Below the pieces are notes generated by a model. It did no database searches. It had not been told where the DNA came from and worked only from the letters and a program-made list of their open reading frames with translations. Below, one piece after another: positions 16,949 through 20,826 of a stretch of 38,594 bases of DNA. Origin of the DNA: Sphingomonadaceae bacterium (GTDB taxonomy: Bacteria; Pseudomonadota; Alphaproteobacteria; Sphingomonadales; Sphingomonadaceae); assembly GCA_021741065.1 (NCBI GenBank), contig JAIOYN010000009.1:1-38594 (forward strand), in the 5' to 3' direction. The position numbers and the translations under genes were made by a program. The stretch's first letter is position 1. Each line of letters begins with the position of its first letter.

Positions 16949-18191
16949 AACGCAGCACCTGAACTGGGTCCGTACTTGCCGCCTTGAGCGCCGGGTACAA
17001 GGTTGCAAGGAAGCTGAACAGCAAAGCCAGTCCGCAGATAGCCAACACTTCAAACGGGTCGGTGCGCGACGGCAACTCGGTCAGGAACCGGATCGATGGG
17101 TCCCACAAATTCTGTCCGGTCACAAACTGAATGAAATTTACCACCGACTGCCGGAAATACAGAAATATCGCGCCCAATATCATGCCGAGAACAATCCCCG
17201 ACGAGCCAATCAGCAAACCGACAGTCATAAAGATTTTCAGCAGGGATTTGCGCGACGCCCCCATGGTCCGCAATATGGCGATGTCCCGCGTTTTGGCGCG
17301 CACGAGCATGATTAATGAAGACAAGATGTTGAACACTGCGACAAGAACAATGATGGACAGCACGACAAACATCGCGACCCGCTCAACCGCCAAAGCCTCG
17401 AACAAAGAGGCATTCATGCTTTTCCAGTCGACGATCTGCCCCTTATTCTCAAGCTTAGGTAATAAGGGCCCGAGAATCTCATTCACCTTGTCCGGGTTTT
17501 CGGTCTTGATTTCGATCATGCCGATTTCATCCCCCATCAGCATGAGGATTTGCGCGCGTTCGATAGGCATGATCACAAACGCTTTGTCATAATCATACAC
17601 GCCCACCTCAAAGATCGCCGCGACCTCATAAGAAATCTCACGCGGCACGGTGCCAAATGGCGTGGTGCGACCGGCTGGGTTGATGATCGTGACATTCTGC
17701 CCGACCTGAACCCCAAGTTTTTGGGCAAGCCGCGATCCAATCGCAACCTTGTCTTCATTGGCGGTTAACCTGCGCAAATCGCCGGCGACAGTCTTTCCCT
17801 TCAACGTGTCGTTTCTCAGGATATCATTTACCGACATGCCGCGTGCCAATATGGCCTCAACGCGGCCATTGAAGGTGGTCAGCAAGGGCTGCTCAATCAA
17901 CGCCGTTGCATCGGTGACGCCCTCTGTTTGCCTCACGTCGGTGAGGATTTGACGCCAATCTTGCAGGCGGCCGCCATAGCCTTGAACCACGGCATGCCCG
18001 TTCAGGCCAACGATCTTGTCAAATAATTCGGCACGAAAACCGTTCATCACGCTCATCACGATGATCAACGCCGCGACACCCAATGCAACCGCAACGAGGC
18101 TGATACTGGCGACTAAGAAAATAAAGCCCTCACCCTTACCTGGGAGCAGATACCGGCGTGCGACCAGATATTCATATCGCGACAATATCAT
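16941..18191 (-). CDS. Lipoprotein-releasing ABC transporter permease (LolC/LolE family)
   Basis: A 416-residue membrane protein starting [15 protein letters not shown] (ATG 18191-18189), the usual family N-terminus; an ATG six codons upstream is possible. A first TM helix (about 26-49) is followed by a large periplasmic MacB-like domain (50-265), then three TM helices in an FtsX domain (about 270-295, 315-345, 375-400). Only one LolC/E-type gene is present beside lolD, so the complex is probably a LolF-like homodimer rather than LolC plus LolE, as reported for many non-gamma proteobacteria. Its promoter should lie in 18192-18450, where a + strand small RNA is also predicted. Confidence 0.93.
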
Positions 18192-18258
18192 GTGCGGACA
18201 CTCATCCATGTTTTCGGCATGGATTGTCCTTAGGTTCCGCCATGACGGCTGGCAAGTA

Positions 18259-18286
18259 TTGTTGCAGCAGCGCAACAGCATATAAA
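18259..18286 (+). promoter_or_regulatory. Sigma70-type promoter with embedded inverted repeat, driving the predicted small RNA
   Basis: TTGTTG (18259-18264) and TATAAA (18281-18286) are separated by 16 bases and face the + strand, where no protein gene begins before the terminator at 18456. A perfect inverted repeat, TGTTGC (18260-18265) and GCAACA (18272-18277), spans the -35 and spacer and could be an operator. Prediction from hexamers only. Confidence 0.45.
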
Positions 18287-18292
18287 AAAGCG

Positions 18293-18490
18293 TTGGGCAG
18301 AGTCTGGTTCCGTTTGCAAAGCGAATAGCAAAAGATGATGCAGTATTTGAATGCGTCGAAAGCCCGAAACGGCCGATGGTTCAGGGAGAAAAATCAGACC
18401 CGCCGGTGGGGACCGGTAGAGGACTGAAACCACGCGCTGAAAAAGCCGCAAAGTGAGGCCGTTCGGAAATTCCGGGCGGCCTTGTTTTTT
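18293..18490 (+). ncRNA. Predicted structured small RNA of unknown family (about 200 nt)
   Basis: No protein gene fits here, yet the + strand has a promoter-like pair (18259-18286) and a strong intrinsic terminator (18456-18490). Between them are nested perfect helices: 18302-18309 with 18392-18399 (8 bp, one G-U), directly stacked on 18310-18315 with 18367-18372 (CCGTTT/AAACGG, 6 bp), and inside that 18337-18342 with 18352-18357 (6 bp, one G-U). A separate hairpin 18403-18416 has stem CCGGT/ACCGG and a GGGG loop. GGTTCAG (18378-18384) can also pair with 18424-18431 with one bulge, giving a pseudoknot or an alternative fold. I do not recognise tmRNA, RNase P RNA or SRP RNA. A divergent 6S RNA cannot be excluded. 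Confidence 0.55.
18456..18490 (+). terminator. Strong intrinsic terminator of the predicted small RNA
   Basis: A 12-bp stem pairs 18456-18467 with 18471-18482 around an AAT loop; only two pairs are G-U. It is followed by TG and six T residues (18485-18490). The T-run is on the + strand only, so it does not serve the leftward lolC/E transcript. Confidence 0.8.
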
Positions 18491-18535
18491 GTTGTGGTTA
18501 ATTTTGCAGACTATTTTTTGTCATGATTTTTTAGC

Positions 18536-18563
18536 CTTGCATTTTTTCCGGCACATCCCATCT
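18536..18563 (+). promoter_or_regulatory. Heat-shock (RpoH-type) promoter of hsp20
   Basis: CTTGCA (18536-18541) and CCCATCT (18557-18563) resemble the sigma32 consensus CTTGAA / CCCATNT with about 15 bases between. The position is about 100 bases upstream of a small heat-shock gene. A perfect 9-bp inverted repeat begins two bases downstream (18565-18585). Confidence 0.55.
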
Positions 18564-18564
18564 T

Positions 18565-18657
18565 GCCTTTCGGAGGCCGAAAGGCTCCAAAAACGAACAT
18601 GTTGGCCGCTGCATTTGCGGGGTTAGCGATGAACCAAATTGCTTGAAGGAGAATTTG
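18565..18657 (+). promoter_or_regulatory. ROSE-like RNA thermometer in the hsp20 leader
   Basis: The leader has three consecutive stem-loops: GCCTTTCGG/CCGAAAGGC (18565-18585, perfect), CCGC/GCGG (18606-18620), and a 3' hairpin in which CAAATT (18635-18640) pairs with AATTTG (18652-18657). The last hairpin encloses TTGCT (18639-18643) facing the Shine-Dalgarno AAGGAG (18646-18651). A U(U/C)GCU stretch opposite the Shine-Dalgarno, including a G-G mismatch, is the diagnostic feature of ROSE thermometers, which melt on heating and allow small-Hsp translation. If transcription starts near 18570, part of the first stem's 5' arm would be missing from the RNA. Confidence 0.6.
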
Positions 18658-18659
18658 TA

Positions 18660-19145
18660 ATGACGCGTTTTGATTTTACACCCTACCGCCGGAACACTGT
18701 TGGCTTTGACCGCCTATTCGAGCTGCTCGAAAGCACAGGCCGTGCCGCGCAGAATGAGAATTACCCCCCGTTCAACATCGAGCGCACTGGTGAGAATGAT
18801 TATAAAGTAACTGTCGCCGTTGCTGGGTTCAAGACGGATGAGATCGACATAATTGCGCAACAGAATTTGCTCATCGTCACCGGCAGCAAACATTCCGAAA
18901 GCAATGATAATCGCGATTTCCTGCATATGGGCATCGCGAACCGGAACTTCGAACGCCGGTTTCAACTTGCAGACCATATTCATGTGATCGATGCAGACAT
19001 GGCAGACGGTCTTTTGATTATCACCCTATTACGAGAGGTGCCCGAAGCGTTAAAGCCACGCAAAATTGCGATTGGCGCGAAAGCGGCGTCCACGGTGATT
19101 GAACATGATGCAGCGCCCAAGAAAAAAGGGCCGAAAGCGGCTTAA
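18660..19145 (+). CDS. Small heat-shock protein, Hsp20/IbpA family
   Basis: A 161-residue alpha-crystallin-type chaperone that holds unfolding proteins in the cytoplasm. It starts MTRFDFTPYRRNTVGFDRLFELLE, the conserved N-terminus of alphaproteobacterial class A sHsps, at ATG 18660 eight bases after AAGGAG. The alpha-crystallin domain runs from about 40 to 135 (YPPFNIERTGENDYKVTVAV ... GLLIITLLREVPE). A short PRKIAI segment (about 140) matches the I-x-I C-terminal anchor, followed by a Lys/Ala-rich tail. It is a single-gene unit with its own heat-type promoter, thermometer-like leader and downstream hairpin. Confidence 0.95.
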   Translation: MTRFDFTPYRRNTVGFDRLFELLESTGRAAQNENYPPFNIERTGENDYKVTVAVAGFKTDEIDIIAQQNLLIVTGSKHSESNDNRDFLHMGIANRNFERRFQLADHIHVIDADMADGLLIITLLREVPEALKPRKIAIGAKAASTVIEHDAAPKKKGPKAA

Positions 19146-19158
19146 GCATTAGAAAATG

Positions 19159-19190
19159 GGGCGGCAGGATAAAACCGCCGCCCTGTCTCT
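19159..19190. terminator. Hairpin between convergent hsp20 and pyrG
   Basis: GGGCGGC (19159-19165) pairs with GCCGCCC (19177-19183), with an 11-base loop. The downstream sequence is only moderately T-rich on the + strand (TGTCTCTGTT) and carries CATTTTC on the - strand. It probably serves both genes weakly. Confidence 0.5.
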
Positions 19191-19191
19191 G

Positions 19192-20826
19192 TTATACCAA
19201 TCGGATTTGCGTTAGCGCAGCCTTCACAAAGCTTGCGAACAAGGGGTGCGGCGCAAATGGGCGTGATTTCAATTCTGGGTGGAACTGCACGCCGATAAAC
19301 CAAGGATGATCCCGACGTTCGACAATTTCGGGCAATTCGCCATCGGGCGACATACCGCTGAACACCAATCCGCCTTGCTCCAGCGCATCCTTATAATGGA
19401 CATTCACCTCATAACGGTGGCGATGCCGCTCGGATATGTCCTTCGTGCCGTAAATGGACGCGACATGGCTGTTGCCATCCAGCACGGCATCATAAGCGCC
19501 CAAACGCATCGTGCCGCCCATATCTCCGCCCGTTTCGCGCTTTTGAATGCCCTCTTGGCTCATCCATTCGGTGATAATGCCCACAATTGGTTCATTTGTG
19601 GGGCCAAATTCCGTACTGGATGCGCCCGACAGTCCTGCGGTGTTCCGCGCGCCTTCTATACATGCCATTTGCATGCCTAAGCAGATCCCGAAAAAGGGCA
19701 CCTGGCGTTCACGCGCGAATTTGACGGCCGCAATTTTGCCTTCGGAGCCGCGTTCACCAAATCCGCCAGGAACCAAAATGGCGTTCATGGGCTCAAGCGC
19801 GGTTGCAATGTCATCTTCGGATTGCTCGAACAATTCGGCGTCAATCCATTTGATATTGACCTTCACCCGGTTCGACAGGCCGCCATGCGTTAAAGCTTCG
19901 TTCAGTGATTTATACGCATCCGCAAGGCCGACATATTTGCCGACAACACCGATGGTCACTTCACCTTCCGGGTTGGACTGCCGATCGATGATATCGTCCC
20001 AACGGCTAAGGTCAGGCGCGCCTTCCGATTCAAGGCCAAATGCCCGCAACACTTCGGTATCAAGGCCTTCGGCATGATATTGCAGGGGCACGGCATAAAT
20101 GCTCTTTGCGTCCAAAGCAGGAATAACCGCCTCTTTGCGGACGTTACAAAATGCCGCAATCTTGGAGCGCTCGGCCTCCGGAAGCGGATGTTCACAGCGA
20201 CACAGCAACACATCGGGTTGAATACCCAAGGATGTCAGCTCGCGCACGCTGTGCTGGGTGGGCTTCGTTTTCAATTCACCCGCAGCGGCAATATAGGGAA
20301 CCAAGGTCACATGCACCGATAAGGTCCGTTCGCGACCCAGCTCGTTACGCAGTTGGCGAATGGCCTCAATAAACGGTAGCGATTCGATATCGCCCACAGT
20401 GCCGCCGATTTCGCACAGAACAAAATCCAAATCCTGCGTCTCGGCCTTGGCGAATTCTTTAATGGCGTCGGTAACGTGCGGGATGACCTGCACCGTTGCG
20501 CCCAAATAATCACCGCGGCGCTCTTTTTGGATAATATTCTGATAGATCCTGCCCGACGTGATATTGTCCGACTGCCGAGCCGAAACGCCAGTAAAGCGTT
20601 CATAATGGCCAAGGTCGAGATCGGTCTCGGCTCCGTCATCGGTCACATAGACTTCGCCATGTTGATAAGGCGACATGGTGCCTGGGTCGACATTCAAATA
20701 AGGGTCAAACTTCCGTATGCGGACGCGGTAGCCGCGCGCCTGCAACAGGGCGGCAAGCGATGCCGCCATAAGACCTTTGCCAAGCGAGGAGACCACGCCA
20801 CCGGTGATAAAAATGAACCGTGTCAT
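19192..20826 (-). CDS. pyrG: CTP synthase
   Basis: A 544-residue protein that aminates UTP to CTP with glutamine and ATP. The N-terminal amidoligase domain begins [28 protein letters not shown], with P-loop [10 protein letters not shown]. The C-terminal class I glutamine amidotransferase carries [14 protein letters not shown] with the catalytic cysteine and [12 protein letters not shown] with the His/Glu pair. Length is typical. The start is ATG 20826-20824; no obvious Shine-Dalgarno is seen, which is odd for a housekeeping gene. It follows secG by 99 bases in a tpiA-secG-pyrG order seen in many proteobacteria. Confidence 0.97.

Follow-up and report, generated by a model that had tools for sequence, protein, structure and literature searches.

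Does the leader of the small heat-shock protein gene hsp20 at this locus act as an RNA thermometer of the ROSE type, as the original prediction from its letters proposed? The window, by which we mean the whole stretch of 38,594 nucleotides that was analysed, belongs to a Sphingomonadaceae genome assembly of 1.9 Mb in 133 contigs (84% complete), in which there is one Hsp20 match. Among the relatives listed for this Hsp20, the closest is that of Sphingorhabdus sp. EL138, with 96% identity, which makes a Sphingorhabdus-like host very likely. The gene, which starts at an ATG (18660-18662), converges with a CTP synthase gene on one side and diverges from a permease gene on the other; the FtsX and MacB_PCD domains of the permease suggest a protein of the LolC/E type. 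We hold it to be highly probable that hsp20 is a sigma-32-controlled small heat-shock gene of this Sphingorhabdus-like bacterium and that the leader directly 5' of it, in its 5' UTR, is an RNA thermometer of the ROSE type. The leader is ROSE-like by each criterion of sequence and structure that can be tested here, and it lies below the automatic cut-off of Rfam. The features of the locus are collected in Table 1.

Table 1. Features of the hsp20 leader and gene, in window coordinates
Feature	Position	Strand	Details and basis
RpoH (sigma-32) type promoter match	18536-18563	+	-35 CTTGCA 18536-18541, N15, -10 CCCATCT 18557-18563
Hairpin I: GGAG/CUCC + CC/GG, bulged G18576, GAAA loop	18572-18588	+	RNAalifold on 27 leaders; same layout in the Rfam ROSE fit
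Hairpin II	18601-18627	+	RNAalifold; 3 of 9 pairs changed on both sides, 92.2% of cells paired
Hairpin III, presumed thermosensor: CAAAUU/AAUUUG clamp, unpaired G18641, CUU/GAG inner stem	18635-18657	+	Folds and family-wide covariation
U(U/C)GCU anti-Shine-Dalgarno motif (UUGCU)	18639-18643	+	Sequence; kept in relatives
Shine-Dalgarno AAGGAG, part in loop, part paired in hairpin III	18646-18651	+	Sequence and fold
hsp20 CDS (small heat-shock protein, 161 aa)	18660-19145	+	PF00011, 66.1 bits (cut-off 20.8)

The predicted fold of the leader (18565-18665) has an energy of -34.2 kcal/mol, compared with a mean of -24.7 kcal/mol for shuffled sequences (z -2.84; 2 of 200 shuffles as good). It closes with the hairpin that motivated the prediction, for which the coordinates of TTGCT, AAGGAG and the clamp CAAATT (18635-18640) opposite AATTTG (18652-18657) had been given correctly to the base; the TT of TTGCT doubles as the inner end of CAAATT. 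The two further stem-loops that had been proposed ahead of it are also present, which gives the leader three, within the two to four of ROSE-like leaders, and there is covariation in all of them. The first of these is 18572-18588, favoured by both the alignment and the fit to the ROSE model, and not the minimum-energy stem 18565-18585, which is not the conserved one. In the 3' hairpin, the U(U/C)GCU motif is imperfectly paired with the Shine-Dalgarno (SD) region, as had been described. The G-G mismatch named with it does not appear in the predicted fold, where G18641 is a bulge with nothing opposite. A G-G pair in the SD hairpin is known for ROSE elements, and one could possibly form at G18641. 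The distance from the motif to the ATG, which had been described as compact, is ordinary, as its 21 nt fall within the 17-28 nt of relatives.

The promoter match CTTGCA-N15-CCCATCT is similar to both the RpoH1 (CTTGAA-N15-16-CCTATAT) and the RpoH2 (CTTGCC-N15-16-CCTATCT) promoters described in PMC4843759, a paper that gives rpoH1 alone for Sphingomonadales. The loose pattern CTTGNA-N12-19-C[CAT][AT]T[ACT]T was found in 74 of 180 hsp20 leaders, compared with 6 of 3600 letter-shuffled regions, and is absent from the remaining leaders. No sigma-70-type site was found in 18150-19400. The match suggests that hsp20 uses sigma-32 and, if it is right, transcription would be expected to start near 18570, where the Rfam ROSE match also begins; part of the minimum-energy stem 18565-18585 would then be outside the RNA. 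Just 5' of this promoter, a terminator-like stem followed by T-rich sequence occupies 18450-18488 of the + strand, and 5' of that stem the + strand has short ORFs only.

A search with Rfam at its gathering scores returned no matches anywhere in the window. With the threshold lifted, the region 18400-18800 was compared with 4227 families, of which three matched at E<=10, the best being ROSE (RF00435). This match runs from 18570 to 18663, takes in model positions 1-94 of 94 and extends to the hsp20 start codon. Its score of 23.0 bits corresponds to an E of 0.24 over all 4227 families, and to roughly 6e-5 (0.24/4227) for ROSE alone, the family that had been named beforehand. The comparison with Rfam that had been proposed as a check thus singles out ROSE among all families, at a score short of the gathering cut-off of 45 bits; that cut-off is an annotation threshold and not a biological feature. 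RF00435 was also run against 149 genomes from this bacterial family, among them the own genome, and matched 22 at E<=0.001, 16 of them above the cut-off, in a search with stricter filters that lost some weak matches, so that true recall may be somewhat higher. Wherever they were compared with the Hsp20 places found in the family genomes, RF00435 matches end at Hsp20 starts. Some presumed orthologous leaders fall just below the cut-off (G013 and G115 with 41.5 bits, G102 with 38.2), near misses that would follow from the leaning of Rfam covariance models on sequence similarity, as stated in PMC2873474. The expectation that a sphingomonad example would extend the ROSE family is weakened by these numbers: elements above the cut-off already occur in this bacterial family, and the window adds a further example, AU-clamped and from an environmental freshwater sphingomonad. 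Separately, G017, G031, G057 and G102 have two to five RF00435 matches per genome (five in G057, four in G102; loci among L085-L114), located at Hsp20 starts where compared.

The motif itself is far more widespread than the Rfam matches. The hsp20 leaders examined, nearly all from Sphingomonadales, comprise 53 loci from the list of relatives, together with 27 of 30 loci and 100 further places from a search of family genomes, 180 in all; L055, L056 and L057 were dropped as repeats of the window, L015 and L032, respectively. Of the 141 family genomes that had a match in that search, 130 are represented, and some leaders occur twice, the 183 loci amounting to 176 distinct 93-nt leaders. In 174 of the 180 leaders, or 170 of the 176 distinct ones, T[TC]GCT lies 17-28 nt 5' of the start codon. 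The six outside this count are L160 and L164, which have ACGCT instead, L176, L204, L207 and L197, the last because its start codon was missed by the script. None of the 109 aligned leaders of presumed orthologues departs from UUGCU at its G, C or last U, and the unpaired G of the SD hairpin is likewise present and unchanged in all of them. As a side observation, 27 of the 174 leaders (L022 and L023 among them) have an ATG 5' of the motif whose reading frame continues across the thermometer hairpin and joins that of hsp20, so that automatic annotation could arrive at an over-long Hsp20.

Absence of covariation from orthologous leaders had been named beforehand as the result that would count against a thermometer. 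Covariation was found, family-wide in hairpin III and within the genus in hairpins I and II. For hairpin III, the arms were anchored by sequence alone, pairing being ignored, and both anchors were located in 175 of 180 leaders (those without both are L160, L164, L176, L204 and L207), which reduce to 120 distinct arm sets. The pairs 18638-18654, 18637-18655, 18636-18656 and 18635-18657 (p3-p6) are kept in 109, 100, 102 and 97 of these, respectively, more than in all 1000 shuffles, and the pair types seen in the clamp are A-U, C-G, U-A, G-C and G-U. The two positions outside the clamp are paired in just 51 and 52 of the 120 sets, indicating that the stem ends there. Among the 68 distinct arm sets of presumed orthologues, picked by an M-x-R N-terminus, the outer three clamp pairs (p4-p6) do better than every shuffle, and there is little variation in the first; the remaining 52 sets have all four clamp pairs above every shuffle.

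Covariation was also measured on a MAFFT alignment (A2) of the 109 presumed orthologous leaders (108 distinct), which leaves out the 58 of 183 loci with the other Hsp20 type. In hairpin III, 97.3% of cells are paired and 24 are double-changed, compared with a shuffled mean of 4.5. In 500 shuffles, the observed values for paired percentage, double-changed cells, pair types and covariation score were never reached; the count of pairs showing a double change, 4 in the alignment, was reached in 3. When the partner was slid by 1-3 columns, pairing was at most 62.6%; the slide of +3 produced more double-changed cells (36) but paired in only 36.9%. In A1, the alignment of 27 Sphingorhabdus-group leaders (26 distinct), hairpin III does not vary and is hence uninformative on covariation, so that its covariation comes from more distant relatives and paralogues only. 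Hairpins I and II have four pairs with double changes in A1 (reached by 1 of 500 shuffles; the pair types by 8 of 500), with 96.8% of all cells paired, and the hairpin I pair 18575-18585 is changed on both sides in 4 of the 26 distinct sequences. The shuffle statistics ignore relatedness; safer evidence comes from the slid controls and the pair-type count.

The invariance of hairpin III within the genus group would also be expected if the conserved block were a protein or sRNA binding site, for example a repressor site, and not a folding element. Across the family, however, the letters change while the pairing stays. Moreover, a Bradyrhizobium leader of this type was first read as a factor-binding site and later shown to work by RNA structure, according to PMC4166951, and we consider a binding site extremely unlikely.

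The conserved letters could, in principle, be coding. A short uORF of 15 codons (18599-18646, + strand; MLAAAFAGLAMNQIA) crosses hairpin II, ends inside hairpin III and is open in 15 of the 27 A1 leaders, that of the window included. Also, the TTG at 18639 is in the hsp20 frame and is taken as the start in the mechanical ORF list. Against both stand the variation of the uORF in unpaired columns, which is not concentrated in third positions (1/6, 3/7 and 2/8 for the three codon positions), the loss of the uORF start codon in L013-L020, and the distances from the motif to the ATG, which fall in all three frames (70, 45 and 59 of 174 with remainders 0, 1 and 2), the UUG frame not being kept, for example, in L010. 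With no codon-position signal, a start that is lost and a frame that is not kept, the uORF and the in-frame UUG start were rejected as coding, and we give practically no credence to this explanation of the block. A different role for the uORF, in one Sphingorhabdus clade, would place its stop in the SD hairpin, where a translating ribosome could open the hairpin as a second, translation-coupled input; this we regard as very unlikely.

The thermometer reading was also approached from the side of the window. A covariance model (R1) was made from the 27 A1 leaders only and run over 66 sources, 43 of which (window included) matched in the leader at E<0.05; the matches in L030 and L031 stop ~25 nt before the start codon and are out of register. 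From the 24 RF00435 loci above the cut-off that were obtained, 16 (L085-L100) were given to R1, which recovered 13 at E<0.05, scored L090 at 0.34 and missed L097 and L099. Leaders of the window type and Rfam-recognised ROSE elements of the same family thus identify each other. In a class-wide search of 289 genomes, R1 had matches at E<=0.001 in 3, one of them the own genome; this search scored 13 candidates per genome and missed the motif-bearing family members G091, G041 and G014, so its count says nothing on distribution. Two of the R1 matches are outside the family, L217 (G429) and L218 (G390), and lie directly 5' of Hsp20 genes (PF00011 69.7 and 65.2 bits), both with ATTGCTC and then GGAGAAT. 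In L218, the SD overlaps an ATG, and the true start there is uncertain. A search of the own genome with the leader model gave one strong match, the second, at E 3.8, being at chance level.

Computed melting was less informative. Hairpin III alone has computed energies of -7.3, -5.6 and -3.5 kcal/mol at 20, 30 and 42 °C, and the nearest-neighbour probability that GGAG is unpaired rises gradually, being 0.9% at 20 °C and 4.6% at 42 °C, a 5.25-fold change. Of 28 control genes, 18 were no less closed than this leader at 30 °C, and 15 changed by the same factor or more. With longer flanks, the hsp20 leaders were not separated from the 28 controls (one-sided P 0.49 for closedness at 30 °C and 0.09 for fold change). 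An earlier version with 11 controls had given P values of 0.005 and 0.06, respectively; the closedness signal was lost with more controls and longer sequence, and in neither version was the window's own leader among the most closed. In PMC2896394, a similar computation is reported to give no significant distinction between the known thermometers rpoH and ibpA and other mRNAs; the computed opening is thus weak evidence either way and is not taken as support.

Gradual opening of this unexceptional kind, together with the RpoH-type promoter match, would suit a static structure, in which the hairpin lowers hsp20 translation by a fixed amount and heat control is all transcriptional via sigma-32. 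We think this unlikely, since it sits poorly with a motif kept in nearly every leader, with the invariance of its G, C and U in the presumed orthologues and with the compensated clamp. Furthermore, the same arrangement is heat-responsive by experiment in Pseudomonas ibpA and is described for rhizobial small heat-shock genes (PMC3669281).

The evidence therefore upholds the original reading of the leader as ROSE-like, with ROSE the best Rfam match over the full model and covariation present; a temperature response is what its likeness to known elements would lead one to expect. As a ROSE-type thermometer, the leader would be transcribed from the heat-shock promoter with a start near 18570. At normal temperature, the three hairpins would be folded, with the AU-rich hairpin III pairing UUGCU with the SD region and hindering ribosome binding. 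On warming, hairpin III, the weakest, would open first and allow Hsp20 to be translated, and the GC-richer hairpins I and II would remain folded, a role assigned to them by analogy with the Pseudomonas ibpA and rhizobial elements (PMC3669281 and PMC4166951).

A search of the literature on ROSE or RNA thermometers and sphingomonads (Sphingomonas, Novosphingobium, Zymomonas, Sphingomonadales) gave no sphingomonad ROSE element by title or abstract start, which is not proof of absence. In a paper on Hsp17 of Sphingomonas melonis (PMC10434288), the term "RNA thermometer" occurs, within the available text, solely in a reference title. The Waldminghaus 2005 survey predicted >40 ROSE elements in alpha- and gamma-proteobacteria, as cited in PMC4166951, and its list may include sphingomonads. 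The gap between the spread of the U(U/C)GCU-SD arrangement and the far fewer genomes flagged by RF00435 argues for a broader Rfam model, and the leaders form a large natural collection in which the effect of clamp composition on opening temperature could be studied.

Several thermometer classes invite comparison. FourU thermometers, such as that of Salmonella agsA, also mask the SD by pairing before a small heat-shock gene, but do so with four consecutive U (PMC4166951), whereas the masking strand here is UUGCU, within CAAAUUGCUU, and hairpin III has no UUUU; membership of that class was rejected. The short ROSE-like thermometers of Pseudomonas ibpA, as described in PMC3669281, share with this leader a U(U/C)GCU imperfectly paired with the SD, its position in the 3' hairpin and a sigma-32-dependent small heat-shock gene. 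Those elements fit two hairpins into a 61-62 nt UTR, whereas the leader here would have three in about 90 nt, counted from the transcript start expected from the promoter match. Compared with RF00435, the leader scores 23 bits (<45), its hairpin II differs in sequence, its clamp is AU-rich, and the fitted alignment lacks most of the outer stem of the last hairpin in the model. With the ROSE elements of that family (Bradyrhizobium hspA ROSE1 and its rhizobial relatives), it nevertheless shares the small heat-shock gene, the several hairpins, a hairpin I with a bulged G, the UUGCU opposite the SD with an unpaired G, and an end at the start codon.
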